NCBI RefSeq assembly: GCF_003149145.1
Contig: NZ_QGDQ01000010.1
Coordinates: 1-64,000 of the forward strand
DNA from: Quadrisphaera granulorum
GTDB taxonomy: Bacteria; Actinomycetota; Actinomycetes; Actinomycetales; Quadrisphaeraceae
Length of the DNA stretch: 64,000 bases
Direction of reading: 5' to 3'
Part shown: in pieces, positions 1 to 21,523 of the stretch
Position numbering within the stretch: position 1 is the first letter of the stretch
Layout: each line of letters starts with the position of its first letter
Program-made: the position numbers and the translations under genes
Notes under the pieces: generated by a model
What the model saw: only the letters and a program-made list of their open reading frames with translations
What the model was told of the DNA's origin: nothing
The model's database searches: none

Positions 1-189
1 TGATGGGTTCCTTCGCAAGTCCCATCGTTCCAGGTAGATCGACACCCGCTCCTACGTGATCAGCCCCTCACCCGCACCGACGCGGTGGATCGAGGTTCAG
101 CGGTCCCAAGCACTGGCACACCATCGACGTCATCGCCAGGCTCGCCCGCGCCTGCTGATCGTGCAGTCGGTGTGTTCCACGCTCGATCC

Positions 190-951
190 ATGACAGCGCT
201 CTCGACCCGCCGCCCGGTGACCGTCATCACGGGGGCTGGCCGCGGGATCGGCGCTGCTACCGCCAGACACCTCGCCGAGCTGGGCCACGACCTCGTCCTC
301 GGCTACCTCAGCGACCACGCCGCTGTCGCCGAGGTGGCTGCTCACGCGCGGGCCGCCGGAGCCGACGTCGTCTCCGTCGCCGGTGACGTGAGGGACCCCG
401 CCGTCGCCGATCGGCTCTTCGACGCCGCGACAAGCCTTGGCCCGGTCACGGGGCTCGTGAACAACGCCGGCCTGACCGCACACATCGGAGACCTCGCCGA
501 CACGCCCGTCGAGGTCATCGCGCACGTGGTCGAGGCCAACCTCCTCGGCACCATCTGGTGCGCCCGCCGCGCCGCCCAGGAGATGTCGACGGCGCGCGGT
601 GGTGCCGGTGGGTCCGTGGTCAATGTCTCCTCGGCTGCCGCAACGCTCGGCTCACCGCACGAGTACGTGCACTACGCCGCAGCCAAGGCGGGCGTGGAAG
701 CGCTCACCGTCGGCCTGGCCAAGGAGCTCGCCGCGGAGGGGGTGCGGGTGAACGCCGTCGCGCCGGGACTGGTGGACACCGACATCCACGCGGCAGCCGG
801 TGACCCGGACCGGCTGCGACGCGTGGTGCCACGCATCCCCTCCGGCCGGGTCGGGCAGCCCGAGGAGATCGCCCGCGCCATCGCCTGGCTGCTGGGGCCC
901 GAGTCGAGTTACACGAACGGCGCGGTGCTGCGCGTCGCCGGCGGGCTCTGA
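190..951 (+). CDS. SDR family NAD(P)-dependent oxidoreductase
   Basis: A classical short-chain dehydrogenase/reductase of 253 residues, the usual length for FabG-like members. It has the nucleotide-binding motif TGAGRGIG at residues 14-21, the NNAG motif at 91-94, and the catalytic set Ser147/148, Tyr162 and Lys166 (YAAAK). The frame stays open upstream to position 85, but the ATG at 190 puts the Rossmann strand at the expected distance from the N terminus, so I use it. It probably reduces a carbonyl or oxidises an alcohol in the cytoplasm; the substrate cannot be read from sequence. A DinB-like gene follows after about 20 bases on the same strand and may be co-transcribed. Confidence 0.85.
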   Translation: MTALSTRRPVTVITGAGRGIGAATARHLAELGHDLVLGYLSDHAAVAEVAAHARAAGADVVSVAGDVRDPAVADRLFDAATSLGPVTGLVNNAGLTAHIGDLADTPVEVIAHVVEANLLGTIWCARRAAQEMSTARGGAGGSVVNVSSAAATLGSPHEYVHYAAAKAGVEALTVGLAKELAAEGVRVNAVAPGLVDTDIHAAAGDPDRLRRVVPRIPSGRVGQPEEIARAIAWLLGPESSYTNGAVLRVAGGL

Positions 952-970
952 CGGACGGGAGGATCACACC

Positions 971-1492
971 GTGATCGATCGACGTGAGCTGCTACGACGC
1001 CAGCTCAGGGTGGCCTGGTCACTGGCCGAGTACCACCTGCAACGCGTCACTACCGAGAGCCTGTTGTGGGAGCCATCCACCAGTTGCTGGACCGTCCACC
1101 GCGATAGCGAGGGGACGTGGCGACCGGATTGGATGGTTCCCGAACCTGACCCGACACCGCCGCCGACGGCGGCATGGGTCAGCTGGCACCTCGGGTGGTG
1201 GTGGACCGAAGCACTCGCCCAGCTGACCGGGCAGGCGCCGCCTGGCCGCGAGGACATCACCTGGCCGGGCGACGCCGCAGCCACCGTGACGTGGCTACGC
1301 GCGCTGCACGACGCGTGGGTCGCACAGCTCGACGCTCTGAAAGAGGCCGACCTCGATGCGCCTGTGACCTTCCCCTGGCCACGGGAGGCCGACCGCTCGG
1401 TGGCGGACCTGCTGGCCTGGGTCAACGTCGAACTGACGAAGAACACCGCAGAGATCGGACAGCTCACGATGATCTTCACGGCACGCCAGTAG
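971..1492 (+). CDS. DinB-like (DUF664-type) four-helix protein
   Basis: A 173-residue protein resembling the DinB/YfiT-like superfamily: an N-terminal helix (RRELLRRQLRVAWSLAEYHL), a Trp-rich central segment with SWHLGWWW, and a C-terminal helix beginning in VADLLAWVNVELTKNTAEIGQ. Family members are small metal-binding helical bundles, some acting as thiol-dependent transferases; no specific reaction can be assigned here. The start is GTG at 971, about 20 bases after the SDR stop, so the two may form a small operon. The family assignment rests on general pattern, length and the conserved Trp/His region, not on a strict signature. Confidence 0.6.
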   Translation: MIDRRELLRRQLRVAWSLAEYHLQRVTTESLLWEPSTSCWTVHRDSEGTWRPDWMVPEPDPTPPPTAAWVSWHLGWWWTEALAQLTGQAPPGREDITWPGDAAATVTWLRALHDAWVAQLDALKEADLDAPVTFPWPREADRSVADLLAWVNVELTKNTAEIGQLTMIFTARQ

Positions 1493-1562
1493 GTGCCCGC
1501 CGCTGGCACCAACGCGGTCCCGACCATCGCCACCCAGAGGATCTCGACGCCACACTGCTCCG

Positions 1563-2213
1563 GTGCTGACGTCGTCCACGGTGTTGCTCTTCCTGGCCGC
1601 AGCGCTTCCGCTGGCGGCCTTCCCCGGTCCTGCGGTCGCCGTCATCCTGGCCGTCTCCCTGCGGCACGGTCGCGCCCACGGGCTGGCCGCCACGGCCGGC
1701 GTCGAGGCAGGCAACGCGGTGCACGTGCTGGCCGCCACCGTCGGGCTGTCGGCGCTGGTCGCGGCCTCAGCGACCGCCTTCACCGTCGTCAAGGTGGTCG
1801 GCGCTATGTGGCTGCTGTGGTTGGCGCTCACGGCGCTCCGGTCGAGGTCCTCCGGGACGCTCGCGGACCTGAAATCCTCCGCCGACCCGCAGGCCTCCAG
1901 CGGACCGCTGCACCACTCGGCCCGCCGGGGGCTGCTCGTGGGCGTGCTCAACCCCAAGACGGCGATCTTCTTCGTCGCGTTCCTCCCCCAGTTCGTCGAT
2001 CCGGCGGGAGGTCCGGCCTGGGCGCAGCTGGCCGCGCTCGGGCTGCTCTTCGTGGCGGCGGCCACGGTCTTCGACTGCTGCTGGGCCCTCGCCGGCGCCG
2101 GCATGTCCGGGGTGCTCCGGCGGGTCCGGCTGGTCGTCCTGGACCGGGTCTCGGCAGGCATCTACGCCGCGCTCGCCGCGCTGACGCTGTCGGCGCGTCG
2201 AGCCACCACCTAA
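1563..2213 (+). CDS. LysE/RhtB family amino-acid exporter
   Basis: A 216-residue integral membrane protein with about six hydrophobic segments. The N-terminal PGPAVAVILAVSLRHGRAHGLAATAGVEAGN matches the family hallmark (PGP followed by a G-rich helix and GxxxG), and the middle carries the typical LNPKTAIFFVAFLPQF segment (residues about 130-145). Proteins of this family export amino acids or related metabolites by proton antiport at the inner membrane; the substrate is unknown. GTG at 1563 is the first in-frame start that keeps the whole first helix. It is convergent with the following epimerase gene. Confidence 0.85.
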   Translation: MLTSSTVLLFLAAALPLAAFPGPAVAVILAVSLRHGRAHGLAATAGVEAGNAVHVLAATVGLSALVAASATAFTVVKVVGAMWLLWLALTALRSRSSGTLADLKSSADPQASSGPLHHSARRGLLVGVLNPKTAIFFVAFLPQFVDPAGGPAWAQLAALGLLFVAAATVFDCCWALAGAGMSGVLRRVRLVVLDRVSAGIYAALAALTLSARRATT

Positions 2214-2365
2214 GTGGCGTTGCTGGGGCGCTGTCGCGTCGCTGTGGAGCGTGCGCCCCATCAGCGTCACGAGGCGATTACTCCCATGGGGCCAACTGTT
2301 CACAGCTCCCCGAACTCCACGACAGATCACCAGGACAAGGACGAGGCACGCGCGCCGCCGCGCCC

Positions 2366-3340
2366 TCAGCCGGGCAGTGAAGAGCGGCGCTTCGCGACGA
2401 GGTCGCGGGCGGCCGTCTGCCACGTCGCGTGCTCGAACGCGAACCCGCGCTCCAGCAGCCGGCCGGGCACCACGCGGCGGCTCTTGAGCAGCAGCTCGGT
2501 GTCCGTGCGCAGCACCAGCGCGCCCACCTCGGCCATGAGCCTGGTGGCGGGCAGGCCGATCGGCTGCCCCCACGCCCGACGCAGCACGCGCATGAACTGC
2601 CGCTGCGGGAGCGGCTCGGGCGCTGCGAGGTTGACCGGCCCCTCGACGTCGTCGTCGTCCAGGAGCAGCTGCAGCGCGCGGACGAAGTCGTCACCGTGGA
2701 TCCACGAGACGTACTGCCCGCCGCCGTCCACGGGTCCGCCGAGGCCGATCCGGGCCATCCAGGAGAGGTAGTCGAAGATGCCGCCGCGGTCCGGCGTCAT
2801 GACCATCGCGGTGCGCAGCTGGACCTTCCGCGTGCTCGGGGTGGTCGCCTCGGCCTGCGTGGCCTCCCACCGGCGGGCGATCCGCACGCTGTACTCCCAG
2901 TACAGCGGCACGTCCGGCTCCTCGCCGCCGATCTCGCCGGTGGCCTCGTCGTGCGCGGGCCCGTGGGGGCGGGTGCGGGCGTCGGCGTAGATGGTGGCGG
3001 TGCTCATCTGCAGCCACACCCGCGGTGGGTTCGCCGCGGCGGCGATCGCCTGCCCGACCGCGCGGGTCGAGTCGACCCGCGAGTCCATCATCTGCCGCAG
3101 ATTCGCGTCGGTGTAGCGGCAGCTCACCGTGCGCCCGGCGAGGTTGACGACGGCGTCGGCGCCGTCCAGCTCCGCGGCCCAATCACCCAGGGTCCGCCCG
3201 TCCCAGAGGACATGCCTGATGCCCGGTTCGAGCACGTCAGGGCGCCTGCTGAGGACGACGGCGTCGTCACCGCGAGCCGCGAGCGCCCGGCGGAGCAGGC
3301 CGCCGACCTGGCCGGTGCCTCCGGGGAGCACGATCTTCAC
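2366..3340 (-). CDS. TIGR01777-type NAD(P)-dependent epimerase (SulA-like, DUF1731)
   Basis: A 324-residue extended-SDR protein starting MKIVLPGGTGQVGGLLRRAL, with the GGTGQVG nucleotide-binding motif at residues 7-13, a NLAGRTVSCRYT stretch and a C-terminal region of the DUF1731 kind (PLPQRQFMRVLRRAWGQPIG ... RVVPGRLLERGFAFEH). This combination is typical of the TIGR01777 family found in many bacteria. The biochemical function is not established; it is annotated as a sugar-nucleotide-like epimerase. It lies downstream of the PepSY gene on the same strand, but a strong hairpin at 3385-3415 separates them, so it is probably transcribed on its own. Confidence 0.85.
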   Translation of the reverse strand: MKIVLPGGTGQVGGLLRRALAARGDDAVVLSRRPDVLEPGIRHVLWDGRTLGDWAAELDGADAVVNLAGRTVSCRYTDANLRQMMDSRVDSTRAVGQAIAAAANPPRVWLQMSTATIYADARTRPHGPAHDEATGEIGGEEPDVPLYWEYSVRIARRWEATQAEATTPSTRKVQLRTAMVMTPDRGGIFDYLSWMARIGLGGPVDGGGQYVSWIHGDDFVRALQLLLDDDDVEGPVNLAAPEPLPQRQFMRVLRRAWGQPIGLPATRLMAEVGALVLRTDTELLLKSRRVVPGRLLERGFAFEHATWQTAARDLVAKRRSSLPG

Positions 3341-3384
3341 CGTCTGACGCTAGCTCGGTCAGCGCCCCGGAGGTGAACGGTGCT

Positions 3385-3415
3385 CGGCGGGACGCGCCGT
3401 CTCCGCGTCCCGCCG
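3385..3415 (-). terminator. Hairpin after the PepSY operon
   Basis: A perfect 12-bp inverted repeat, CGGCGGGACGCG at 3385-3396 and its complement at 3404-3415, with a 7-base loop. It lies 100 bases past the PepSY stop and before the epimerase start. There is no clear T-tract, as is common in actinomycete terminators. Confidence 0.55.
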
Positions 3416-3514
3416 GGCACAGTCCAGGAGAGGCTCATTTCTCCTGACGCCGAAACTGCCGCACGTCGGCGGCCGCACACACCCCGCTGAGGTCTGAACT
3501 GACGCTGCCCCCGT

Positions 3515-4819
3515 CTACGACCCCAGGGGGACCCGCGCCCGCTGGGCCGCACGGCGGTTCTTCGCCGTCTTGCGGCGCACCAGCCACGTCGAGGTGCCGG
3601 TGATGGCGAGCGCCAGCGGCGTGAGCCCGAAGGCCACCCACAGGAGACGCCACCAGCCGTTGACCACGTACCCGGTGTGGACGGGGAAGTTCCACGCCTG
3701 CCAGGTCGGGGTCAGGGGCTGACCGGCGAAGCCGTAGGTGGTCTGGGCTGTGCCGGTGGACGGGTCGATCTCGACGCCGACGTCGCCCGGGTACGGGAGG
3801 CGGGCGTACGGGTCGTGCGGGGTGGACAGCCACACCGTGGTGGTGGGCGTCTCCTGGGTCGGCGGCACCAGCGCCGCGACCCGTGTGCCGGGGTGGGCCG
3901 CGAGGGCGAGCGCCACGGCGGCCTCTTCCGAGACGGGGAGGGCGGGCGGTGTGACCGTGGCGGCCAGATGCACGGGCTCGGGCCCCTCCACCTCGCTACC
4001 GGGCGTCAGCGCAAACCACGCCTTCTCCACGAAGCCCAGCTCGTACCCGGAGCCGGTCAGGCCCCAGACGAGCAGCGGTGCCAGCGCCAGCACCCCGATG
4101 ACCTTGTGCAGGTCGGTGTCGCGGGCGAAACGACCGCGGTCCCAGCGGATGGTGAACCCCTGCTTCCAGCGCTTCGGGCGGGGGAACCACAGCCAGACCC
4201 CGGAGACGCACAGGAACAGCAGCAGCAGACCCATGGCGCCGAGCAGGAGGTTCCCGATGGTGAGGTCGCGGTCGTGCCCCAGCCACCCTCCGAGGTTGGT
4301 GTGCGGCAGCGGTGTCGTCAGCGCCGCGATGTAGCCGGCGTGCCCTTCGCAGGTGAGGAGGCACTCGTGGAGGTTGACGGCGAAGTCCAGCCAGGCTGGG
4401 TCAGGGTTGACATGTCCCAGGACAGCGCCGGTGGCGGGGTCGACGGTCCACGCGTCGGTGTAGCTCTCGTCGTAGACGGTGTAGACGTCGCCGTTGTCGT
4501 AGACCGCCGCGGTGGCGAAGTTGGGATGCGACCGCTGGACGGTGTCGATGGCCGCAGAGAGCGGCACCCGTGCGTGGTGGGCGGCGTCCGCGGAGGTGCT
4601 GGTCGTGAACGCTGAAGCGTTGAACGCGCGGTGCAGCTCCGGCTGGTAGAGCACCACGACCCCCGACGTCGTGATGAGCACCAGCAGGACGCCCAGCACC
4701 AGGGAGGTCCAGCGGTGGGTGACCACCAGGGCGTGGCGCACGGGCGAGCGTCGCTTCCGAGCGGGCCGCGCAGGGCGCGGCGGCGCTGCCAGTCCGGCGC
4801 CGGTCGTGGCGCCGGTCAT
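3515..4819 (-). CDS. PepSY-associated TM protein (iron-regulated)
   Basis: A 434-residue membrane protein of the PepSY_TM family. Four hydrophobic helices are visible: residues about 30-57 (HRWTSLVLGVLLVLITTSGV), the NLLLGAMGLLLLFLCVSGVW region, the VIGVLALAPLLVWGLTGSGY region, and a last helix in WWRLLWVAFGLTPLALAITG. They are separated by large extracytoplasmic PepSY-like segments. The pattern of histidines at helix ends resembles membrane-bound iron or flavin reductase-like proteins, often found with siderophore or haem genes. ATG at 4819 overlaps the stop of the upstream small membrane gene by four bases, so the two are translationally coupled. The iron box at 5169-5187 points to expression under iron limitation. 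The exact function is inferred; ferric-siderophore reduction is one possibility. Confidence 0.85.
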   Translation of the reverse strand: MTGATTGAGLAAPPRPARPARKRRSPVRHALVVTHRWTSLVLGVLLVLITTSGVVVLYQPELHRAFNASAFTTSTSADAAHHARVPLSAAIDTVQRSHPNFATAAVYDNGDVYTVYDESYTDAWTVDPATGAVLGHVNPDPAWLDFAVNLHECLLTCEGHAGYIAALTTPLPHTNLGGWLGHDRDLTIGNLLLGAMGLLLLFLCVSGVWLWFPRPKRWKQGFTIRWDRGRFARDTDLHKVIGVLALAPLLVWGLTGSGYELGFVEKAWFALTPGSEVEGPEPVHLAATVTPPALPVSEEAAVALALAAHPGTRVAALVPPTQETPTTTVWLSTPHDPYARLPYPGDVGVEIDPSTGTAQTTYGFAGQPLTPTWQAWNFPVHTGYVVNGWWRLLWVAFGLTPLALAITGTSTWLVRRKTAKNRRAAQRARVPLGS

Positions 4820-5163
4820 CGCAGCGCTCCCACCGCGTCGAGCAGCGACCACACCGTGACCCCCACGACGAGCGCGGCGACCACCACGTACGCGGGCCAC
4901 GCAGCATGCCGCAGGCGGTGCAGGCGGCGGGCTCCGCTGACGGCCACCACCGCCCCCAGCACCTGCAGCACGAGACCCAGCGGCCCGAGCAGCACACCGA
5001 GGGTTCCCAGGGCCGGCGCGAGGACGTACTGCACCAGGCATCGTGCCGCCGAGGTGTACAGGCCGAGAGTGACGGCGGCGCGCGCCTCGCCGGCCGGATC
5101 GTCGACGGGTTCGGGGTGCGAGGGGTCCGTCACAGGCCGGACGGACACGTGATCGTGAGCCAC
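4816..5163 (-). CDS. Small membrane protein in iron-box operon
   Basis: A 115-residue protein with two or three hydrophobic segments: TLGLYTSAARCLVQYVLAPA, LGTLGVLLGPLGLVLQVLGAVVAV, and AYVVVAALVVGVTVWSLLDA. It has a short acidic N-terminal tail. I do not recognise a named family. I place the start at GTG 5163, which is the first in-frame start after the iron box; this leaves only five bases between operator and start, so the message may be leaderless or the operator may overlap the promoter. An ATG at 5211 would translate straight through the iron box and looks less likely. Its stop overlaps the PepSY start (ATGA), suggesting the two proteins work together at the membrane in iron acquisition. 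Confidence 0.7.
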   Translation of the reverse strand: MAHDHVSVRPVTDPSHPEPVDDPAGEARAAVTLGLYTSAARCLVQYVLAPALGTLGVLLGPLGLVLQVLGAVVAVSGARRLHRLRHAAWPAYVVVAALVVGVTVWSLLDAVGALR

Positions 5164-5168
5164 GCGAC

Positions 5169-5187
5169 TGAGGTTAGCCTTACCTGA
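5169..5187 (-). promoter_or_regulatory. DtxR/IdeR-type iron box
   Basis: The sequence TGAGGTTAGCCTTACCTGA matches the 19-bp consensus TWAGGTWAGSCTWACCTWA at 17 of 19 positions and keeps both half-sites. It lies immediately upstream of the chosen start of the small membrane protein. In actinobacteria DtxR/IdeR/DmdR with ferrous iron represses from such sites, so the small protein-PepSY operon should be induced by iron starvation. Confidence 0.85.
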
Positions 5188-5258
5188 TCCCAGCGTCGAG
5201 ACTCTCGTCATCACGCCGCGCCGGGCCGCCGGCGATGCCGGGACATGGAAAGCGACGA

Positions 5259-5287
5259 CGCCGCGGAGTGGGGGGCTCTCCGCGGCG
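5259..5287. repeat. 10-bp stem hairpin in divergent intergenic region
   Basis: CGCCGCGGAG at 5259-5268 pairs perfectly with CTCCGCGGCG at 5278-5287 over a 9-base loop. It sits between two divergent genes, where no terminator is needed, so it may be a leftover of a lost gene or part of the control region. Confidence 0.45.
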
Positions 5288-5301
5288 CCGCCGCGCCTGT
5301 G

Positions 5302-5324
5302 AACACGATTAACTAAATCGTGTT
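5302..5324. promoter_or_regulatory. Inverted repeat, probable LacI-family operator
   Basis: AACACGATT (5302-5310) and AATCGTGTT (5316-5324) form a perfect 9-bp inverted repeat with a 5-base centre in an AT-rich patch about 110 bases before the LacI-family gene. A TTGACT resembling a -35 element overlaps its right end at 5323-5328. Autoregulation by the neighbouring LacI protein is the simplest reading; it is inferred from position and symmetry only. Confidence 0.5.
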
Positions 5325-5433
5325 GACTTGAAGCTACGGAGTGCTGGTTCACCTGTCAACGACCGCCCCCGGCGCGTAACCTCCCCGGAGCAGTGGGCCC
5401 GGCAGCGCGGTGCCCCGACAAGGAGCCGAGCCA

Positions 5434-6417
5434 GTGCCAGATTCGTTGCCCGACGGCAGGAAGCGCGCCACCGCCCTCGACGTGGCCAGGCTCGCCGGAG
5501 TGTCGAGGACCACCGTCAGCTTCGTCTTCAACGACAGGGCCGAGGCGCGCGGCATCAGCCCAGCGACCATCCAACGGGTGCTCGATGCCGCCCAGGAGTT
5601 GGGCTACACCCCCGACCGGGCCGCTCGCATCCTGCGCAGCGGCGTCAGCGACCTGGTCGTCTTCACCGGCCCGCACCCCGTGGCGCTGGGCGCGTTCGCA
5701 CTCGAAGTGCTCAACGAGGTGTCGGACCAGCTGTCGGACGAGGGCTTCCACTTCATCATGCGCAGGGCGCGCCCCGACCGACCCGCCCACGAGGTGTGGC
5801 GGCAGCTCTCGCCGGCGTTCGTCGTGGGTCTGGAGCTCACCGCCGCAGACGTCGCGGACCTGGAGACCGCGGGGATCCCCGTCCTCGACGCCAATCTGGG
5901 AACCTTCGACGACGCGCTCGGCACCCTGCAGGCTCGGTACCTGCTGGACCAGGGGCACACAGCGCTCGCCTACGCCACCCCCACCGAGGAGCGGGCCGCC
6001 GCCTATGCGGGCCGCCGACTCGCGGCGGTGCGCCGCACCTGCGAGGAGGCCGGCGCACCGGCCCCGGTGCACCTCAAGACCACCCTGGACCCCGAAGCGG
6101 CCGCGACCGCCGTCAGCAGCCTGCGCGACCACCCCGGCGTGAGCGCGATCTGCGCCTACAACGACGACGTCGCCTTCGCCGTCCTCGCGGGCATGGCACG
6201 GCTCGGCCTCCGAGCACCTGAGGACCTGGCCGTGATCGGCTCGGACAACATCCCGCTGTCGGCGGTGGCGGTTCCCAGCCTGACCACCATCGACCCGGGC
6301 GTGCTGCCCATCGCCAACTACCTCACGCACGTGGTGCTGAGCGCCATCGCCGGGTCTCAGCCCGACGTCGACGCACTGCCCCCACCGCCGACCGTGGTGG
6401 TGCGGCACAGCGCGTAG
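5434..6417 (+). CDS. LacI family transcriptional regulator
   Basis: A 327-residue LacI/GalR-type repressor. The helix-turn-helix is at about residues 11-33 (TALDVARLAGVSRTTVSFVF), followed by the hinge ATIQRVLDAAQELGYTPDRAARILRSG. The C-terminal part is a periplasmic-binding-protein-like effector domain ending with the usual VIGSDNIPLSAVAVPSLTTI. GTG at 5434 is chosen because AAGGAG lies eight bases before it (5420-5425); an upstream GTG at 5410 has no such site. No sugar transport or catabolism gene is adjacent, so its regulon is unclear; the iron genes on either side are not obvious targets. The effector domain is somewhat compact, as in many actinobacterial members. Confidence 0.9.
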   Translation: MPDSLPDGRKRATALDVARLAGVSRTTVSFVFNDRAEARGISPATIQRVLDAAQELGYTPDRAARILRSGVSDLVVFTGPHPVALGAFALEVLNEVSDQLSDEGFHFIMRRARPDRPAHEVWRQLSPAFVVGLELTAADVADLETAGIPVLDANLGTFDDALGTLQARYLLDQGHTALAYATPTEERAAAYAGRRLAAVRRTCEEAGAPAPVHLKTTLDPEAAATAVSSLRDHPGVSAICAYNDDVAFAVLAGMARLGLRAPEDLAVIGSDNIPLSAVAVPSLTTIDPGVLPIANYLTHVVLSAIAGSQPDVDALPPPPTVVVRHSA

Positions 6418-6492
6418 CTCTCAACGAGTCGCTGAGCGAGACCAGCCACGACCGAGGAATCTCCCAGGCAGTTGCCAGAGGCACAAGGGTTG

Positions 6493-6511
6493 TTTGGCGA
6501 GGCTTGCCTCA
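6493..6511 (+). promoter_or_regulatory. Degenerate iron box upstream of efeUO
   Basis: TTTGGCGAGGCTTGCCTCA matches the iron-box consensus at about 13 of 19 positions, with the central AGGCT and right half CCT preserved. It lies 16 bases before the GTG start of the EfeUO fusion. The match is weaker than the site at 5169, but position and gene function support iron control. Confidence 0.5.
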
Positions 6512-6526
6512 CCATGATCAAGGGCC

Positions 6527-8635
6527 GTGCACTGGTCCACAGCTGTCCCCAACCTCGTCATCGGGCTCCGCGAAGGGCTCGAGGCCGGGCTCGTCCTCAC
6601 CATCCTCCTGGCCGCGGCCCGCACGTCAGCCCCGGACGGCTCGCGCCGCCCCACGGCGCCGGTGTGGCTCGGTGCCCTGGCCGCGCTCGCCTGCGCCGGG
6701 GCGTTCGCCGCGGTGCTCTCGGTCTCGGACTCGGTGCTGTCCAGCACCGGCCAGGAGGCCCTCGGCGGGCTGCTGAGCGTGCTGGCCGTCGGCCTCATCA
6801 CGGCGATGGTCGTCTGGATGCGCCGTGCCTCGGCGTCGCTGGCCGGCGAGCTACGCGGCAAGGTGGCGGTGGCATCACTGGCCGGTCCGGCGGCGCTCGC
6901 CGCGGCAGCGTTCCTCGCGGTGGGCCGCGAGGGCCTGGAGACCTCGCTGTTCCTGTGGACGGCAGCGCGCGCCGCGGGGTCCAGCACCGGCCCGCTCGTC
7001 GGCGCGGCCATCGGCCTCGCCGGCGCGGCGGTGCTGTGCTTCCTGCTGTTCCGACGGGCGATCCGCTGGAAGGTCGGCCCCTTCCTCAACCGCACGGCGG
7101 TGCTGCTCGTCGTGATCGCCGCGGGGGTGCTCGCCTACGGACTCGGCGACCTGCAGGACGCCGGCTGGATCCCCGGTCACACCTGGACGGCGTTCGACCT
7201 CACGAGCAGCGTCGACGCCAGCACCTGGTGGGTCGCCCTGGTCACGGGCCTGACCGACCTCTCCCCGCGGATGACGGTGCTGCAGGTCACCGCCTGGGCG
7301 GTCTACCTCGTGCTGACCCTGCGCGCGCTCGCCGTGGCGGGCCGCGCCCCCACGCCGCAGCCCGAGCCTGCTCCGGCTTCCGCAGCCGTCGCTCCCGGCA
7401 CCGCAGAAGGAGCAGGACGACGACGGCGCGGTGACGCGCTCGCCGCCCGGCTGGCCTCGCGGCCGTGGCGCACGGCGGGCGTCGTCGTCGCCGTCCCAGC
7501 CCTGGCAGCGGTGGCGCTGGTGCAGCTGCTCCCTCGCAGCAGCGCGGTGGCCACCACGCTGACGGTGACGGACACGCAGTGCGCGCCAGGGTTCAGCACC
7601 GCGAGCGCCGGCACGCAGGTGTTCCAGGTGACCAACAGCTCCTCGCGGATCGTGGAGGTGAACCTCGACGACGCGAGCGGCGGCATCGTCGGGGAGATCG
7701 AGACACTGGCGCCCGGCACCACCGCGCCGATGTCCGCGACGCTCGGCAGCGGGACGTACACCGTGAAGTGCCTGCCTGCGGGCAGCGACGCCCTGAGCTC
7801 CGGCTCCGTGCAGGTGACGGGCAGCGCCGGGAGCACGGTGGATACGGCCGCGCTGGCGGTGAAGCCGGTGTCCCTGGACGACCTCAAGGGCCCCGACGCC
7901 GCGTACCAGACCTACGCCGCGGGGCAGCTGACGCAGCTCGCAGCCCAGGTCGCGACGCTGCAGGCAGACCTGCACCGCGGTGACCTGGCCGCCGCGCGCC
8001 GCGACTGGCTGCCGCCGCAGCTGACGTGGGAGCGAGTCGGTGCCTCCTACGACAGCTTCGGTGACCTCGGCGCCGCCGTCGACGCCCTTCCCGACGGGCT
8101 GCCTCAGGGCGTGGACGACCCCGGCTTCACCGGGTTGCGCCGCCTGGAGTTCGGGCTGTGGCACGGCCAGAGCGCCGAGGAGCTGCTGCCGGTGGCCGAC
8201 CAGCTCGCCAAGGACGTCGCGGCGGCGCAGGCGCACCTCGGCGACGACGACCTCGCCGGCGACCCGACTCAGCTGCCGGTGCGCGCCCACGAGATCCTCG
8301 AAGACGCCCTGCGTGACCACCTCACCGGTCTGGACGACAACGGCGCTGGCGCCCGGTACGCCATGACAGCGGCCGACGTCGACGTCACGCGGACCGTGCT
8401 CAGCGAGCTCGCGCCGCTCCTGGACGCCCGCCGTCCGCACCTCGTGGCCACGGCCGATGCACAGCTCGACCGGCTCGACACGGCGTTGGCCGCCACGCGC
8501 ACCGCCGACGGCACGTGGACGGCGCCCGCCGACGTGCCGCACGCCCAGCAGCAGGCCGTGCGCGCCTCGATCGGGGCGGTGCTGGAGACGCTCTCCGCCG
8601 TCCCCGACCTTCTCGAAGTTTCCCCGGGCTCCTGA
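6527..8635 (+). CDS. efeU: EfeU-EfeO fusion: iron permease with EfeO domain
   Basis: A 702-residue protein joining two normally separate parts of the EfeUOB iron importer. Residues 1-270 are an FTR1/EfeU permease with about seven helices and both REGLE iron-binding motifs (15-19 and 134-138). A Pro/Ala linker (about 272-300) leads to an eighth hydrophobic segment (317-335). Residues about 345-432 are a cupredoxin-like EfeO N domain with Cys352 and Cys415. Residues about 455-700 are an imelysin/M75 EfeO domain. The eighth helix would place the EfeO part outside the membrane, as needed. In the M75 domain the usual HxxE motif (GFHRIE type) reads GLRRLE at 536-541, with Arg538 in place of His. 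GTG at 6527 starts the gene; efeB follows 70 bases later. It imports iron, probably ferrous after EfeB-linked redox chemistry. Confidence 0.9.
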
Positions 8636-8705
8636 CCCGCTCGCCCCGCTCCCCGAGCGTCACCTCGCCCGTGCCCTCACCCGACTACAGCAAGGACGTC
8701 ATGCC

Positions 8706-9953
8706 ATGGATCTGAACCGCCGCAACTTCCTGCGAGGAGGGCTGGCCGGTGGCGCCGGCACGGCCCTCGCCGCCGCCCTGGCCGTGGGCGGTGCCCGCGC
8801 CGACGCCGCAGCGGCCGCAGAAAACGGCTCCGGCGGGCAGGCTTCGGAGCCGGCGACCTACCCCTTCCACGGCGCCCACCAGGCAGGGGTGCTGACGCCC
8901 GGGCCCAGCGAGAAGCAGAAGGCAGCAGCCTTCGTGGCCCTGGACGCCACGGCGGCAGCCCGCGAGGACCTCAAGGCCGTGTTCGAGACGCTGACCGACA
9001 GGGCACGCGCCCTCACCGCCGGCGGGCCCGCACCCGACCTCGGCGTCGGGCAGCCACCCGCGGACAGCGACGTGCTCGGCCCGAGCATCCCCGCCGACGG
9101 CCTCACCGTGACGGTCTCGGTGGGCGCCAGCCTCTTCGACGACAGGTACGGCCTGGCCTCGGCGAAGCCGGCCAAGCTCACGCCGATGCGCGTGTTCCCC
9201 AACGACGCGCTGGAGGACGCGTGGACCGGCGGCGACGTGATGCTGCAGCTGTGCGCGCACCACCCCGACACCGTTCACCACGCGCTGCGCGACATCACCA
9301 AGCACACGCGCGGCGGGCTGCAGCCGCGCTGGCGTATGGACGGCTTCGACTCCCCGCCGCGGCCCAGCGGCACCAGCCGCAACCTCCTGGGCTTCAAGGA
9401 CGGCACCGCGAACCCCACCGGCGACGAGGCAGCCAGTCTCATCTGGATCGACGACCCGTCCGAGCCTGCGTGGGCGCAGGGCGGCAGCTACCAGGTGGTG
9501 CGGGTGATCCGGATGCTCACCGAGTTCTGGGACCGCGTCTCCCTCGACGAGCAGCAGCAGATGTTCGGGCGGCGTCGCGACAGCGGCGCGCCCCTGGACG
9601 GCAACGCCGAGTTCGACACCCCCGACTACGCCAAGGACCCCCACGGCGACGTCATCCCCCTCGACTCCCACATCCGCCTGGCCAACCCGCGCACCCCGGA
9701 CACCGCAAACCAGCGGCTGCTGCGCCGCTCCTACAACTACGACCGTGGGCTGGACGCCAACGGCAACCTCGACGTCGGGCACGTCTTCACCTGCTATCAG
9801 CAGGACGTCGTGCGGCAGTTCGAGACCGTCCAGCTGCGCCTGGTCGACGAGCCCCTGGTCGACTACGTGCAGCCCTTCGGCGGCGGCTACTTCCTCACGC
9901 TGCCGGGGGTGCGTGACTCCAGCGACCACTACGCGAAGGCCCTGTTGGCCTGA
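8706..9953 (+). CDS. efeB: EfeB: Tat-exported Dyp-type haem peroxidase
   Basis: A 415-residue deferrochelatase/peroxidase. The N terminus [20 protein letters not shown] is a twin-arginine signal (Arg5-Arg6), followed by an Ala-rich hydrophobic stretch and a likely cleavage region near residue 37. The body is a Dyp-type peroxidase, with GFKDG at 229-233 (catalytic Asp of GxxDG) and the haem-ligand region [11 protein letters not shown] followed by [11 protein letters not shown]. It acts outside the cytoplasmic membrane, probably oxidising ferrous iron or removing iron from haem for the EfeUO permease encoded just upstream. Length and motifs are complete. The ATG at 8706 is the only start that retains the Tat signal in register. 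Confidence 0.95.
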
Positions 9954-9961
9954 CCACCTGC

Positions 9962-10822
9962 ATGTGCCAGCCTCGACGCGTGGAGTCGTTCACGCGTGCG
10001 GGCCTGCACTTCGACGTCACCGACGTCGGGCCCGACCTGCCCGACGCACCGGCGGTGCTGTGCCTGCACGGCTTCCCGCAGGATCGCTCCGCCTACGACG
10101 CCGTCGCCCACCGCCTGGCCGGTCGCGGCGTGCGCGTGCTGGCGCCCGACCAGCGCGGGTACTCCCCCGGTGCACGTCCGCCCGGACGCCGCGCGTATGC
10201 GCTGCCTGAGCTGGTGGCCGACGCCGTCGCCCTTCTCGATGCCGCCGGTGCGCGGCGGGCGCCCGTCGTCGGGCACGACTGGGGCGGCGTGGTGGCGTGG
10301 GCCCTGGCAGCCTGGCACCCCGACCGGGTGGCGTCGCTGACGGCGCTGTCGCAGGCCCACCCCGACGCCATGACCGGCTCGCTGCTGCGGTCCTCCCAGG
10401 CGCTGCGCTCGTGGCACATCGCCGCATTCCAGGTGCCGGGCCTGCCCGAGCAGGTGCTGACGCGTGCGGGGGCGCTCGAGCGGCTGCTGGTCCACACGGG
10501 GCTGCCGATTGACCTCGCCCGCGGCTACGCCGAGCGAGCCGCCACGGGCGGGCGCCTCACGGCGGCGCTGGGCTGGTACCGCGCGGTGCCCTTCGCGGGC
10601 CGAGCCGGGGGACGGGGTCGGGGCGTGGGGCGGGTCGCCGTCCCCGTCACCTACCTCCACGGCTGGCGCGACCCCTTCTACTCCCCCGCCACGGTCCTGG
10701 CCACGGCCGACCACGTCGACGGGCCCTTCCAGCGACGGACGCTGGACACCGGCCACTGGGTTCCCGAACTCGAACCCGACGCCGTGGTCACCGCCGTGCT
10801 CGAACACCTCAGCCGGACCTGA
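9962..10822 (+). CDS. Alpha/beta hydrolase, epoxide-hydrolase-like
   Basis: A 286-residue alpha/beta hydrolase. The oxyanion segment HGFPQ is at residues 36-40 and the nucleophile elbow GHDWGG at 104-109 carries Asp106, as in epoxide hydrolases and haloalkane dehalogenases rather than a serine esterase. The C-terminal catalytic His is in DTGHWVPEL. The substrate is unknown. It begins eight bases after efeB on the same strand and could be read through from that operon, although no iron-related role is evident. Confidence 0.85.
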   Translation: MCQPRRVESFTRAGLHFDVTDVGPDLPDAPAVLCLHGFPQDRSAYDAVAHRLAGRGVRVLAPDQRGYSPGARPPGRRAYALPELVADAVALLDAAGARRAPVVGHDWGGVVAWALAAWHPDRVASLTALSQAHPDAMTGSLLRSSQALRSWHIAAFQVPGLPEQVLTRAGALERLLVHTGLPIDLARGYAERAATGGRLTAALGWYRAVPFAGRAGGRGRGVGRVAVPVTYLHGWRDPFYSPATVLATADHVDGPFQRRTLDTGHWVPELEPDAVVTAVLEHLSRT

Positions 10823-10870: not shown

Positions 10871-11458
10871 GTGAGCTCGCCCGTCGTCCCCACCGTCCCC
10901 GACATCGTCGTCGCCGCGGAGCGCCGTGCGGCTGAGCACTCCTTCGTCTGCTCCTGCGCTGCCCCGACGGGGCCCCTGCTCGCGACGCTCGCCGCGGCGG
11001 TCAGGCCCGGCGGGCGCGTCCTGGAGCTGGGGACGGGCGTCGGCGTCGGCACCGCGTGGATCGTCTCCGGGCTCGAGGGCCGCGAGGACGTCGAGGTGGT
11101 CACCATCGAACGCGACGACGCGCTGGCCGACGTCGTCCGGAACGCCAAGGACCCCGACCTCCCCGTCACCGTGCTGACCGGCGACGTCGAGGCCGTGCTA
11201 CCAGGCCTGGGCACCTTCGACCTCGTCTTCGCCGACGCCGAGGGCGGCAAGTGGTCGGGCCTGGACCTGACCATCGCCGCCCTCGCGCCCGGCGGGGTGC
11301 TGCTCGTGGACGACATGGACCTCGCCCGCTACTCCGCGCCCGAGCACCGCGCGGCGGTGACGAGGGTGCGGGAGACCCTGCTGACGCATCCCAGCCTCGT
11401 CAGCGTGGAGCTGGCCACGGGCACCGGTCACATCCTCAGTTCGCGCCGCCCGAGGTGA
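10871..11458 (+). CDS. SAM-dependent O-methyltransferase-like protein
   Basis: A 195-residue class I methyltransferase, in the size range of small O-methyltransferases (COG4122-like). The SAM-binding motif I is VLELGTGVGVGTAW (about residues 50-63); an acidic residue follows at VTIERDD, and DLVFADAEGGKW corresponds to the post-motif II region with the catechol-methyltransferase-like Asp. VDDMDLARYS near residue 145 is also typical. The methyl acceptor is unknown. GTG at 10871 is the first start. The stop overlaps the end of the convergent MMPL gene by 23 bases. Confidence 0.8.
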   Translation: MSSPVVPTVPDIVVAAERRAAEHSFVCSCAAPTGPLLATLAAAVRPGGRVLELGTGVGVGTAWIVSGLEGREDVEVVTIERDDALADVVRNAKDPDLPVTVLTGDVEAVLPGLGTFDLVFADAEGGKWSGLDLTIAALAPGGVLLVDDMDLARYSAPEHRAAVTRVRETLLTHPSLVSVELATGTGHILSSRRPR

Positions 11459-13703
11459 CCGCCGCGGCCGGGGCCGGTGCCGGGTTGGTCGGGGCTTCGG
11501 AGGGCACGTCGTGACCCTCGGCGCTGATCTTCGGTAGCACGCGGTCCATCCAGCGGGGCATCCACCAGGTGCGGCGACCGAACAGGGCCATCGCCGCGGG
11601 CACCAGCAACATCCTGACGATCCCCGCGTCGATGAGCACGCTCACCGCCAGGCCCACGGCGAGCATCTTGATGACGACGACGTGCGACGTCGTGAACGCC
11701 AGGAACACGCTGATCATGATGAGCGCGGCCGAGGTGATGACACGTCCGGTCGTGGCGAGGCCCTCGCGGACGGAGGCGGTGTCGTCTCCGGTCTTCGCGT
11801 AGTGCTCGTGGACGGCGGACAGGAGGAACACCTCGTAGTCCATCGACAACCCGAAGACGATGGCGAACATCATCATCGGCACGTAGGCCTCGATGGGCAC
11901 CGTCTGCTCCAGGCCGAACAGGCTGCTGCCCCAGCCCCACTGGAACACCGCGACGAGCACGCCGTACGCCGCGGCGATCGACAGGAGGTTGAGCACCGCG
12001 GCCTTGATGGCGAGCAACAGGCTCCGGAAGCTCGCGAGAATCAGCAGGAACGCGGTGAGGACGACGACGCCGATGATGATCGGCAACCTGTCGACGAGCA
12101 CCTCTTGGAAGTCGAACTGGCTCGCCGTCGTCCCCGTGAGGTAGCCCTTGGCACCGGTGTCGGCGAGCGCCGTCGGCAGCGTGGTGTTCAGGAGGGTGTC
12201 GTAGAGGTCGCTCGTGGCCTCGTCCTGCGGGCTGGTGGTCGGGATGACCGTGCCGATGAGGAGCTTGCCGTCCTGCGAGGGCCTGATGGGGCTGACACGC
12301 GCCACGTCGGCGGTGCCCGTCAGGTCGGCCTGCAGGGTCTGGGCGAGCTGCTGGGGTGGGGTGATGGCCCCGGTGACATCGACGACCACCGTGAGCGGAC
12401 CGTTCGCACCGGGCCCGAAGCCCTCGCTGATGAGGTCGTAGGCGCGCTTGTCGGTGAAGCTCGACGGGTCGGCGCCGTTGTCGATGTGACCCAGGCGCAT
12501 CGAGAACATCGGCACGGTCAAGACCGCGAGCACGAGCATCCCCGCCACGAAGGCCGGCCACGGGCGGCGGACCACGGCGGCCGCGTAGCGGTGCCACATG
12601 CCGTGCGGCTCGCTCGCCTCGGCCACGGGCTTGCGGACGGACCACCTGTCGATGCGACGCCCGAGCACACCGAACGCCGCGGGGACCAGCGTGACCGCAC
12701 CCGCGGCCGCCGTCGCGACGGTGAAGACGGCGGCGAAGCCCAGCCCGCCGATGAACGAGATCCCCGAGGCGTAGAGGCCGAGCAGCGCGACGGCGACGGT
12801 CCCGGCAGCCACGAGGACGGCGTGGCCCTTGGTCGCGACGGCCCGTCCGGCGGCGCGCACCGGGTCCTCACCGTCGAGGAGGAGCTGGCGGTACCTCGTG
12901 GCGAGGAACAGCGCATAGTCGATGCCGACGCCGAGGCCGACCATGAGGGCGAGCGTCGGGGACGCCGTCCCCAGGGTGACCACCGCGGCGACGAGACCCA
13001 GGATGCTCAGGCCGAGCACCGTGCTGACGATCGCGGTGACCAGCGGCAGCACTGCGCCGAACAGGCTCCCGAAGCCGACGAGCAGCACGATCAGGGCGAC
13101 GATCAGGCCGACCACCTCACCGGCGTGACCCTCGCCGGGGCGGGTCAGCTCGTCGAGAGCGCCGCCGTACTCGACCTGCACGCCGGCGTCGCGGACCTCG
13201 GCCACGGCGTCGTCGAGGTCGGAGACGTAGTCCTCACCGAGGGTCTTGGGCCGCACGTCGAACTGGACCGTCGTGTAGGCGGTCCGGCCGTCGGGCGAGA
13301 CGGTCGGCGCGGTCGCCGAGAACGGGTCGGACGCGGAGAGCACGTGCGGGAGCGTGCCCAGCTCGCTGACCGCTGCCTGGATCTGCGGGGCGTCGGCCTG
13401 GAGGGAGCCGCTCTCCACGTGGAAGACGACCTTGCCGCCCGAGCCACCCGCGGCGGGATCGCTCGCGGTGAGCAGTTCGGCGCCCGTGTGCGACTGGGTG
13501 CCGGACAGGTCGATGTCGTCGTTGAAGGTGCCGCCGGCGAGCACGTTGGCGACGGCTGCTGCGACCACCGCCAGCAGCCACATCGCGAGCACGCGGTACG
13601 GGTGGCGGGCGGAGGCCTCGCCGATGCGGAAGAGCCCGCGGGGCGGGGCCGGTGTCGGGGCCGGTGTCGGGGCCGGTGCGGTGGCCGGCGTGCTGTGCGG
13701 CAC
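11436..13703 (-). CDS. MMPL family RND-type exporter
   Basis: A 755-residue membrane transporter of the MMPL family. It has an N-terminal Pro/Ala/Thr-rich cytoplasmic tail, a first helix YRVLAMWLLAVVAAAVANVLA, an extracytoplasmic domain, and two blocks of five to six helices. The second block holds the characteristic FAIVFGLSMDYEVFLLSAVHEHY and the first holds MVGLGVGIDYALFLATRYRQ, both carrying the GxxxDY proton-relay motif. It probably exports lipids or hydrophobic compounds using the proton gradient. GTG at 13703 has GAGGAG seven bases upstream. It is divergent from the TetR gene, the usual layout for regulator-controlled efflux. Confidence 0.9.
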   Translation of the reverse strand: MPHSTPATAPAPTPAPTPAPPRGLFRIGEASARHPYRVLAMWLLAVVAAAVANVLAGGTFNDDIDLSGTQSHTGAELLTASDPAAGGSGGKVVFHVESGSLQADAPQIQAAVSELGTLPHVLSASDPFSATAPTVSPDGRTAYTTVQFDVRPKTLGEDYVSDLDDAVAEVRDAGVQVEYGGALDELTRPGEGHAGEVVGLIVALIVLLVGFGSLFGAVLPLVTAIVSTVLGLSILGLVAAVVTLGTASPTLALMVGLGVGIDYALFLATRYRQLLLDGEDPVRAAGRAVATKGHAVLVAAGTVAVALLGLYASGISFIGGLGFAAVFTVATAAAGAVTLVPAAFGVLGRRIDRWSVRKPVAEASEPHGMWHRYAAAVVRRPWPAFVAGMLVLAVLTVPMFSMRLGHIDNGADPSSFTDKRAYDLISEGFGPGANGPLTVVVDVTGAITPPQQLAQTLQADLTGTADVARVSPIRPSQDGKLLIGTVIPTTSPQDEATSDLYDTLLNTTLPTALADTGAKGYLTGTTASQFDFQEVLVDRLPIIIGVVVLTAFLLILASFRSLLLAIKAAVLNLLSIAAAYGVLVAVFQWGWGSSLFGLEQTVPIEAYVPMMMFAIVFGLSMDYEVFLLSAVHEHYAKTGDDTASVREGLATTGRVITSAALIMISVFLAFTTSHVVVIKMLAVGLAVSVLIDAGIVRMLLVPAAMALFGRRTWWMPRWMDRVLPKISAEGHDVPSEAPTNPAPAPAAAVTSGGAN

Positions 13704-13776
13704 GGAGGGGCTCCTCAGGCGGAGGGCGTGTCGGGCGCCGCGAACGCTAGGGATCACGACTGGATTCTGTCAACAC

Positions 13777-14944: not shown

Positions 14945-17122
14945 ATGAGCGGCAGCGCCGCCCGTCTGGACGCCATCAACGCCGTCAAGTCCTTTGTGCC
15001 CCCGGCGCCGTCTTTCGCCCCGAGCGAGGCCCCCGGCGAGATCTTCGGGCAGAACGTGTTCTCCCGCGACGTCATGCAGGCCCGTCTGCCGAAGGCCGTC
15101 TTCCGCTCCGTGATGGCCACCATCGAGGGCGGCGCTCCGCTCGACCCGAGCGTCGCCGACGCCGTCGCCTCCGCCATGAAGGACTGGGCGATGGACAAGG
15201 GCGCCACGCACTACGCCCACGTCTTCTACCCCCTGACCAACCGCTCGGCCGAGAAGCACGACAGCTTCCTCGAGCCCGACGGCGAGGGCTCCTCCATCGC
15301 GGAGTTTGCCGGCAAGACGCTGGTGCAGGGCGAGCCCGACGCGTCCAGCTTCCCCAACGGTGGCCTGCGCTCGACCTACCAGGCCCGCGGCTACACCGCC
15401 TGGGATGTCACCAGCCCCGCGTACATCCTCGAGAACGCCAACGGCAACACCCTGTGCATCCCCACGGTGTTCGTGTCGTTCACGGGTGAAGCGCTCGACC
15501 TCAAGGCGCCGCTGCTGCGCTCCCAGCGGGCCATGGCCGACCAGGCCAAGCGCGTGCTGGCGCTGTTCGGCCACATCGAGCCCGGCAACATCGTGAGCTT
15601 CGCCGGTCCCGAGCAGGAGTACTTCCTGGTCGACCGCAGCTTCTCGCTCTCCCGCCCCGACCTGCTGAACTGCGGTCGCACCCTGTTCGGCGCCAAGCCG
15701 CCCAAGGGCCAGGAGTTCGACGACCACTACTTCGGCGCCATCCCCGACCGCGTGCTGGCCTTCATGCTCGACGCCGAGCGCGAGCTGTTCAAGCTGGGCA
15801 TTCCGGCCAAGACCCGTCACAACGAGGTCGCGCCCAACCAGTTCGAGATCGCCCCGATGTTCGAGCAGGCGAACCTCGCCGCCGACCACCAGCAGCTGCT
15901 CATGGTGACCATGCGCAAGGTGGCCCAGCGCCACGGCATGGAGGTGCTCTTCCACGAGAAGCCCTTCGCCGGCGTCAACGGCTCCGGCAAGCACGTGAAC
16001 TTCTCCTACGGCGGCGGCAACGTCGGCAACCTGCTGCTGCCCGGTGACACCCCCCACGAGAACGCGCAGTTCCTCGTCTTCTGCGCCGCCATCATCCGCG
16101 CGGTGCACCTGCACGGCGGTCTGCTGCGCGCCTCGGTGGCGTCGTCCACCAACGACCACCGCCTCGGCGCCAACGAGGCTCCCCCGGCGATCATCTCGAT
16201 CTTCCTGGGTGACCAGCTGGCCGACGTGTTCGACCAGGTCGCCAAGGGCGGCGCGACGTCGTCGAAGGAGAAGGGCACGCTGACCATCGGCGTCGACACC
16301 CTCCCGGTGCTGCCGACCGACCCGGGCGACCGCAACCGCACCAGCCCCTTCGCCTTCACCGGCAACCGCTTCGAGTTCCGCGCCCCGGGTTCGCTGCAGT
16401 CGATCGCCCCGCCGATGATCACCATCAACACGATCGTCGCCGAGTCCCTCGACTACGTGGCCAACGAGCTCGAGGCCAAGCTGGCCGCCGGCGACGAGTT
16501 CAACCACGCCGTCCAGAAGCTCCTCGAGCAGATCGTCACCGACCACGGCGCCGTAATTTTCAACGGCGACGGCTACTCCGACGAGTGGCAGGTCGAGGCG
16601 GCGGCGCGCGGTCTGAAGAACCTCAAGACCACGCTGGACGCGCTGCCCGAGCTCATCACGCCGGAGTCGCTGGCGCTGTTCTCGAAGTACGGCGTGCTCT
16701 CCGAGCAGGAGTCGCACAGCCGCTTCGAGGTGGCCCTGGAGCAGTACGCGCTGTCCGTCGGCGTGGAGGCCAAGCTGGCCCTGGAGATCGGCGGAACGAT
16801 CATCCTGCCGGCCGCCGTGCGCTACCAGACCGAGCTGGCGCAGAACGTCGCGGCGCTCAAGGCCGCCGGCGTCGAGGCCGACACCTCCCTGCTGGAGGCC
16901 GTCTCCACGCCGCTCGCCGCTCTGCGCACGTCCGTCGCCGCGCTGCGCTCGGCCGTGGCGGCGCACCCGGACGGCGGCTCGGCGGGCCACGCGCTGTACG
17001 CCCGTGACACCCTCCTGCCGGCGATGGCGGCGGTCCGTGCGGCCGCCGACGAGCTGGAGACCGTGGTGGCTGACGACCTGTGGCCGCTGCCGACCTACCA
17101 GGAGATGCTCTTCATCCTCTGA
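14945..17122 (+). CDS. glnN: Type III glutamine synthetase
   Basis: A 725-residue glutamine synthetase of the large GSIII class, much longer than GSI (about 470) or GSII (about 350). GSIII features include the long N-terminal region, [11 protein letters not shown] (metal-binding Glu of the catalytic core, about residue 222), [35 protein letters not shown] with the substrate-binding and metal His, and an extended helical C terminus. It condenses ammonia and glutamate to glutamine with ATP in the cytoplasm. ATG 14945 follows GAGGAG at optimal distance. No adenylylation-type regulator gene is nearby; control by the GlnR-like site upstream is inferred. Actinomycetes usually depend on GSI and GSII, so a GSIII copy is probably an additional isozyme. 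Confidence 0.95.
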
Positions 17123-21436: not shown

Positions 21437-21494
21437 GCCGACCATCCTCCCCCCGCCTTGCATCCGCCCTTGCCAGACTCCATCATCTCACTCA

Positions 21495-21507
21495 TCGAAA
21501 GATTCGA
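21495..21507. promoter_or_regulatory. Palindrome in the MarR/MMPL divergent region
   Basis: TCGAA-AGA-TTCGA is a perfect 5-bp-arm palindrome 16 bases before the MMPL start, in an AT-richer patch. Its placement fits an operator for the divergent MarR regulator. Confidence 0.5.
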
Positions 21508-21523
21508 CCATCGAGAGGTTTTC

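Follow-up and report, generated by a model that had tools for sequence, protein, structure and literature searches.

EfeUOB systems, as known from Escherichia coli and from the split loci of actinobacteria, encode together an FTR1 permease (EfeU), a cupredoxin-M75 protein (EfeO) and a DyP peroxidase (EfeB), with EfeU and EfeO as separate proteins. EfeU and EfeO are reported to form a minimal ferric-uptake complex in Bacillus subtilis (Miethke 2013, cited in PMC9174327), and Xu et al. 2011 (PMC3143127) mention a few EfeO-family members that carry a putative EfeU domain at their N-terminus. Yeast Ftr1p-Fet3p likewise combines an FTR1 permease with an outside cupredoxin-bearing partner, in two proteins rather than one chain (PMC9174327). 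Here we describe an efeUO fusion gene, followed by efeB, in a stretch of 64,000 nucleotides from Quadrisphaera granulorum (the window; contig NZ_QGDQ01000010.1, positions 1 to 64,000). Its product is probably a single-chain, iron-repressed EfeUO importer working with EfeB.

One frame for a permease and an EfeO half

The fusion gene comprises a single uninterrupted frame, and its parts, together with the following gene, are arranged as listed below.

6527..8635, plus strand: efeUO fusion gene, 702 codons, GTG start, no internal stop
6548..7333, plus strand: FTR1/EfeU permease domain (Pfam FTR1, NCBIfam EfeU), residues 8-269, with seven membrane helices predicted from hydropathy
6569..6583, plus strand: REGLE motif 1, residues 15-19, read from the translation
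6926..6940, plus strand: REGLE motif 2, residues 134-138, read from the translation
7343..7462, plus strand: Arg-rich linker, about residues 273-312, predicted cytoplasmic (charge count, dN/dS, model)
7475..7531, plus strand: predicted eighth membrane helix, residues 317-335, signal-anchor-like (hydropathy 2.41; low-confidence model helix 313-333)
7541..7819, plus strand: cupredoxin (EfeO-Cup) domain (Pfam, model, Foldseek, alignment)
7883..8617, plus strand: M75/imelysin domain of a variant branch, residues about 453-697 (Pfam M75, Foldseek, tree)
8706..9953, plus strand: efeB, DyP-type peroxidase with a twin-arginine translocation (Tat) signal (TIGR01412, TAT_signal)

An earlier reading of the letters without database searches (the sequence-only reading) had proposed this architecture, from the permease with both REGLE motifs through the linker and extra membrane helix to the cupredoxin, the M75 part and the adjoining EfeB, and all of these parts were recovered. 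The permease matches Pfam FTR1 with 134.5 bits at residues 8-269 (cut-off 25.3). In the EfeO half, Pfam M75 scores 48.4 bits at residues 458-686 (cut-off 23.5), and Cupredoxin_1 scores 20.6 bits at residues 333-415, under its Pfam cut-off of 27. The best PDB sequence match of the fused protein is E. coli EfeO (7wgu, residues 344-693). Furthermore, an AlphaFold model computed from an 11-row alignment (mean pLDDT 75.3, pTM 0.44, M75 mostly above 80) matched E. coli EfeO 7wgu (E 9.8e-18) and EfeM 7q1g (TMt 0.91) in Foldseek; the model supports the folds of the EfeO half, not the arrangement of the two halves. A Fet3-like multicopper oxidase was rejected, as the chain contains a single cupredoxin. 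The efeB gene starts 70 bases past the efeUO stop, and its product passes the EfeB equivalog TIGR01412 (444.8 bits, cut-off 428).

The same frame is found in two sister species of the genus (G486, G400), with 85% identity over all 702 residues. In total, 14 fused EfeUO proteins were collected from several actinobacterial groups, our own included, 12 of them whole and two cut by contig ends. Besides the three of this genus, they come from Pseudonocardia acidicola (L033), a Kutzneria metagenome-assembled genome (MAG; L034), Kutzneria viridogrisea (L036), a Mycobacterium MAG (L035, a fragment, as the contig edge cuts inside the permease), plasmids of Tsukamurella tyrosinosolvens (L059) and of two Streptomyces (L060, L061), and the further loci L106 (G580), L108 (G609), L109 (G685) and L113 (G550). 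Identity to our protein is 44-55% for L033-L036 and the plasmid matches.

The ratio of nonsynonymous to synonymous substitution rates (dN/dS) against the two sister species lies at 0.13-0.40 across all six segments (permease 0.13-0.14, linker 0.37-0.38, helix 8 0.21-0.30, cupredoxin 0.21-0.24, second linker 0.17-0.40, M75 part 0.22). In the linker only in-frame gaps occur, and length changes preserve the frame. That the fused frame comes from faulty sequencing or assembly, or is a gene in decay, has practically no probability: the fusion recurs in two sister species and 11 further relatives on other contigs and genomes, with neither a stop nor a frameshift between the domains. Because sister species and other actinobacteria hold the same frame, and comparison with the sisters shows purifying selection in every segment, artefact and chance are excluded as its source.

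An EfeO branch with changed M75 sites

In an EfeO tree of 61 sequences, the 14 fused proteins and nine free EfeO proteins lie on one side (SH-aLRT 100), hereafter the branch, and 38 ordinary EfeO proteins on the other. The latter are E. coli EfeO and 37 proteins from split loci, including one from Q. granulorum itself, whose genome also encodes an ordinary split efeU, efeO and efeB (contig C12, 33241-35224, L077). Same-place locus copies (L001, L003, L040, L041, L005, L006, L066) and identical sequences were removed before counts and trees, and EfeO matches of fewer than 150 query residues and FTR1 matches of fewer than 200 were excluded. An M75-only protein, L081, which had joined E. coli EfeO in an earlier 52-row tree (SH-aLRT 90), was left out of the 61-row tree, the site tables and later trees. 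The split EfeO of Q. granulorum falls on a different branch from the fused EfeO half. Thus, the partner of the permease does belong to the EfeO family, as the sequence-only reading held, but it is not the usual EfeO joined on.

Two metal sites have been proposed in the M75 domain of EfeM, site III (Tyr82, His126, Glu129, Glu189, Asp190) and site IV (Glu90, Glu93, Glu97, Asp103, Asp107), whose published numbering we follow (PMC9174327). Residues E90, E93, E97, D103, D107, H126, E129 and E189 are invariant in all 38 ordinary EfeO proteins, including those of the split systems, from which the fused protein differs in this respect. Two of its substitutions are located as follows.

8039..8041, plus strand: Gly505 at the site-IV Glu93 position (E in 38/38 ordinary, G in 23/23 branch)
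8138..8140, plus strand: Arg538 at His126 of GxHxxE (H in 38/38 ordinary EfeO)

Additionally, E97 and E189 are lost in 23/23 branch members, and the Y82 position is a tryptophan in all 23. E90 is retained in 9/14 fused and 5/9 free proteins. At the H126 position, nine of the fused proteins have H, four R and one Y, and seven of the nine free proteins have H; our protein reads GLRRLE for GxHxxE, and both sister species keep the histidine. The site-IV positions E90/E93/E97/D103/D107 are E, G, D, G and D in our protein. The branch also has residues of its own, W494, G505, Y508, G543 and R586 being fixed in 13/13 members compared (10 fused, 3 free) and found in 0/38 ordinary proteins. In the cupredoxin, Cys352, Glu377 and Cys415 align with Cys41, Glu66 and Cys103 of E. 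coli EfeO, which we take to be its cupredoxin site, and these three are kept in 14/14 fused proteins. The Met101 position is variable in ordinary EfeO too (M in 1/38).

The claim of a tethered iron-delivery module is weakened because the proposed M75 metal-site residues are changed. As the cupredoxin residues and the REGLE motifs are kept and the M75 carboxylates altered, the likely iron path would move from M75 to the cupredoxin and the permease. It is possible, if rather unlikely, that the EfeO half binds no iron at the usual places and instead has a structural role or a docking role (for EfeB), or takes another ligand, leaving iron to the cupredoxin and permease. The branch-wide loss of E93, E97 and E189, the loss of H126 in 5/14 fused and 2/9 free proteins, the residues fixed in the branch and the intact cupredoxin triad of the fused proteins would all fit such a part. 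They are to be set against a retained E129 (23/23), an acidic residue at the D190 position (23/23; D 22, E 1) and the low M75 dN/dS, which indicate that some site may remain, and against the cupredoxin Glu66, present in only 4/9 free members; moreover, the roles given to sites III and IV are likewise only proposed (PMC9174327).

A fusion of parts that are normally separate, as the sequence-only reading put it, is real but not new in print (Xu et al. 2011). By description alone, our protein resembles those fusions in having an EfeU-type permease N-terminal to an EfeO-family imelysin-like domain, and it differs in its GLRRLE motif and changed site. Neither an altered-site EfeO branch nor a study of fused EfeUO was found in titles and abstracts of the open-licence literature, among the matches listed. 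In summary, the kind of protein has been known since 2011, and the variant EfeO branch looks new.

Distribution and origin of the fusion

The 14 fusions are the outcome of a search for the EfeU-EfeO (FTR1 plus M75) architecture across actinobacterial genomes, a step suggested by the sequence-only reading. EfeB lies immediately downstream in 13/13 fused loci with downstream sequence, and the fourteenth (L113) stops at a contig edge. Within the family sample the fusion occurs in 3/13 genomes, all of the same genus (3/6 members), and each of the three also carries a split pair. Full-length one-frame matches were found in at least 1/396 genomes of the phylum sample (Q. granulorum itself) and at least 3/149 of the order sample (the same genus), both counts being lower bounds with at most two and seven candidates scored per genome, respectively. 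In the class sample, searched with the M75 half at E 1e-20, 11/197 genomes gave 15 matches, namely five fused proteins (one cut by a contig end), eight free branch EfeO proteins, one with a run of N and one in G023 (31% identity), which was taken for ordinary EfeO and kept outside the tree.

Apparent full-length matches with one TGA inside (G453, G459, G407 and contig C4 of G400) were separate frames when the loci were read, as were the long partial matches of the phylum sample whose loci were read. In L042, L043, L044 and L080, split efeU and efeO stand in one frame with a single stop (TGA) between them; such loci may be a half-way state to another fusion, or readthrough candidates. At L082 (3718-5382), an FTR1 permease stands beside a lipoprotein-like protein with seemingly two cupredoxin-like stretches and no M75 match in its frame.

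The nine free branch EfeO proteins have the same changed M75 sites as the fused ones and an adjoining EfeB in 9/9 cases. They differ from the fused system in that no FTR1 relative lies beside them within the flanks examined, the rest of the genomes not having been searched for all nine. Genome G580 holds one fused efeUO-efeB (L106) together with two free efeO-efeB pairs of the branch (L111, L115). The M75-only branch protein of L074, labelled a lipoprotein, is encoded with a DyP peroxidase on an Arthrobacter plasmid typed as conjugative (1-10630); the same stretch encodes an iron ATP-binding cassette (ABC) binding protein, a P-type ATPase and a protein for cytochrome c oxidase assembly, with a Tn3 transposase nearby. 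Across the branch loci read, the permease is either fused (14) or absent from the flanks (9), with one more locus containing a run of N.

The partner peroxidases show a similar division. In an EfeB tree of 37 rows, 10 fused-linked and three free-linked EfeB proteins, that of L081 and E. coli EfeB group together (SH-aLRT 100), and 22 split actinobacterial EfeB proteins form the opposite side. Both EfeO and EfeB of the split actinobacterial systems therefore belong to other branches than those of the fused system; E. coli EfeB groups with the fused-linked EfeB, whereas E. coli EfeO does not group with the fused EfeO half. Six free-pair EfeB proteins collected later, outside this tree, are 57-64% identical to our EfeB, versus 36-42% for split actinobacterial EfeB.

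The FTR1 halves of 13 fused proteins group as a single clade (SH-aLRT 99), with 55 split permeases outside it; L107, also included in this tree, belonged to no group and was left out of all EfeO counts. In the EfeO tree, a single clade of fused proteins was rejected by the approximately unbiased test (p 0.002), for which only six of the 38 ordinary sequences served as outgroup, the branches of the free proteins L115 and L116 are long and the group tested was chosen with earlier trees in view. Both trees would be fitted best by a single fusion and several later losses of the permease, with repeated gain as the alternative and a small sampling. That the fusion arose when a stop between the lineage's ordinary efeU and efeO was lost is unsupported, as the EfeO half is remote from the organism's own split EfeO.

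Predicted orientation, iron control and role in uptake

The EfeO part is predicted on the outer side of the membrane from the distribution of charge. Predicted inner parts (loops 1, 3 and 5 plus the linker) carry 15-24 lysine and arginine residues, and predicted outer parts (the N-terminus and loops 2, 4 and 6) carry 1-5, in each of the nine whole fused proteins counted; helices were placed from the hydropathy of our own protein, and L106, L108 and L109 were left out. Residues 273-316 alone hold eight lysine or arginine residues versus three aspartate or glutamate residues. By the positive-inside rule, these counts predict an outer N-terminus, an inner linker and an outer EfeO half. The FTR1 protein Ftr1p is likewise thought to have its N-terminus outside.

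A single chain also fixes the EfeU:EfeO ratio, as the sequence-only reading had supposed, unless the chain is cut. We regard it as improbable that the chain is a precursor in which helix 8 is an internal signal peptide and signal peptidase releases EfeU and a secreted EfeO as two free proteins. An A-x-A motif, a possible cleavage site, does follow helix 8 in 6/11 proteins, namely our own (A-V-A), both sister species, Tsukamurella and L106 (A-A-A), and the Streptomyces plasmid L060 (A-G-A), and several free branch EfeO proteins have an N-terminal hydrophobic stretch of their own. The motif is absent there in the other five (Pseudonocardia, both Kutzneria, the Mycobacterium MAG and L061), however, and the strongly hydrophobic stretch after the linker, present in 11/11 proteins compared (mean hydropathy 2.1-3.1 over 19 residues) and in our protein modelled at low confidence as a 21-residue helix, is more anchor-like.

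Iron control of efeUO is suggested by a putative operator in front of the gene.

6493..6511, plus strand: IdeR/DtxR-type iron box, 13/19 match to TTAGGTTAGSCTAACCTAA

The sequence TTAGGTTAGSCTAACCTAA is the IdeR consensus (PMC8464063). The same source reports a native IdeR site that has six mismatches and is thought to bind a single dimer, and it names an EfeO-like transporter as one of the predicted IdeR targets of S. erythraea (PMC8464063). Our search pattern has three matches at two places in the window, versus 0.04 expected from shuffles. Over the whole genome it has 20 matches, which fall at 16 distinct places, and the reversed pattern has none. Boxes stand before both the efeUO operon and the split efeUOB of contig C12, a feature that the two systems share. 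At five other box places, eight frames chosen by length and GC content at third codon positions were scanned; three places lie beside Peripla_BP_2 genes, this family accounting for four of the eight frames, as one of its three genes was taken in two cuts. The genome encodes two DtxR-type regulators over the cut-off. We infer from these sites that expression of efeUO would be iron-repressed through IdeR/DtxR.

Near efeUO, a box at 5169-5187 (16/19) precedes a PepSY_TM membrane protein gene (3515-5041, minus strand), and a LacI-family regulator gene (5410-6417) lies between the two; the PepSY_TM gene and efeUO may form a small iron-controlled island. Overlapping iron boxes at C2:209068-209086 (L104) precede a CopD-CtaG protein gene, a case of predicted iron control over a copper-related gene. 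Elsewhere in the window are a type III glutamine synthetase gene (14945-17122; GSIII_N and Gln-synt_C) and, inside roughly 12 kb, two genes for MMPL-family membrane proteins (11436-13757, minus strand, and 21116-23698, plus strand).

In the importer that we propose, the seven-helix FTR1 permease would end in the cytoplasm and continue through the basic linker into the eighth helix, which would take the cupredoxin-M75 part to the outer side of the membrane. Iron shortage would relieve IdeR/DtxR repression and lead to iron uptake with the Tat-exported peroxidase EfeB alongside; EfeB and the cupredoxin could bind or oxidise the iron and, in cis, hand it to the permease's REGLE path. The fusion would turn the minimal EfeU-EfeO complex reported for B. 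subtilis into a permanent one, the chain hard-wiring what ordinary systems assemble from two proteins.

Several observations weigh against this importer. The changed M75 residues, with Arg for His in GxHxxE, argue against ordinary EfeO iron binding, and the A-x-A motif bears on the integrity of the chain. The AlphaFold model is of middling confidence, with the linker and helix 8 below pLDDT 50. The fused protein misses the NCBIfam EfeU equivalog NF041756 (240.9 bits, cut-off 255; six other fused proteins scanned score 280.7-316.3) and the EfeO equivalog NF041757 (203.1 bits, cut-off 270; 8/8 other branch members scanned score 119.6-219.7, all under 270). The box at 6493-6511 has six mismatches in 19, the pattern was written after the efeUO site and those of the sister species had been seen, and none of the other four of the eight frames scanned is plainly linked to iron, three of them giving Uma2, a CopD-CtaG protein and a DEAD-box helicase and the last no match. 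Finally, with a second, ordinary efeUOB in the genome, the fused system may be redundant or differ in role.

That the system carries copper or another metal instead of iron appears very improbable. The cupredoxin Cys/Glu/Cys set is intact, the free pair of the Arthrobacter plasmid has a heavy-metal P-type ATPase and a protein for cytochrome c oxidase assembly close by, and a Streptomyces DyP peroxidase cluster of similar layout is tied to copper (PMC4736821). Opposed to this are the FTR1 permease with both REGLE motifs, the iron boxes, the TIGR01412 EfeB and, in the same Arthrobacter stretch, the iron ABC binding protein after EfeB.

The single-chain iron importer remains our preferred reading. 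A bolder version, which we consider unlikely, is that this Efe branch has abandoned the M75 carboxylate iron site thought to be general in EfeO and passes iron from a single cupredoxin into the FTR1 permease of the same chain, with M75 serving either for docking or as a receptor of a different iron form; if true, the protein would be a single-polypeptide counterpart of yeast Fet3p-Ftr1p. That the branch loci read have the permease fused or else missing from the flanks would fit halves unable to work apart. These proteins also matter for annotation: in the gene table of the plasmid collection, those of the Tsukamurella plasmid and one Streptomyces plasmid bear the name EfeU alone, the record of the third plasmid has no gene listed at this place, and 9/9 branch members scanned fail the EfeO model cut-off.

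Which EfeO site binds iron and how EfeO meets the permease are questions in the Efe field. A natural single-chain EfeUO offers both partners in one purifiable molecule, suited to structure work. Moreover, the branch is a natural experiment, as it does without carboxylates that are invariant in 38/38 ordinary EfeO proteins; because of this, and with both systems in one genome, comparing their uptake would test the need for the proposed sites III and IV.
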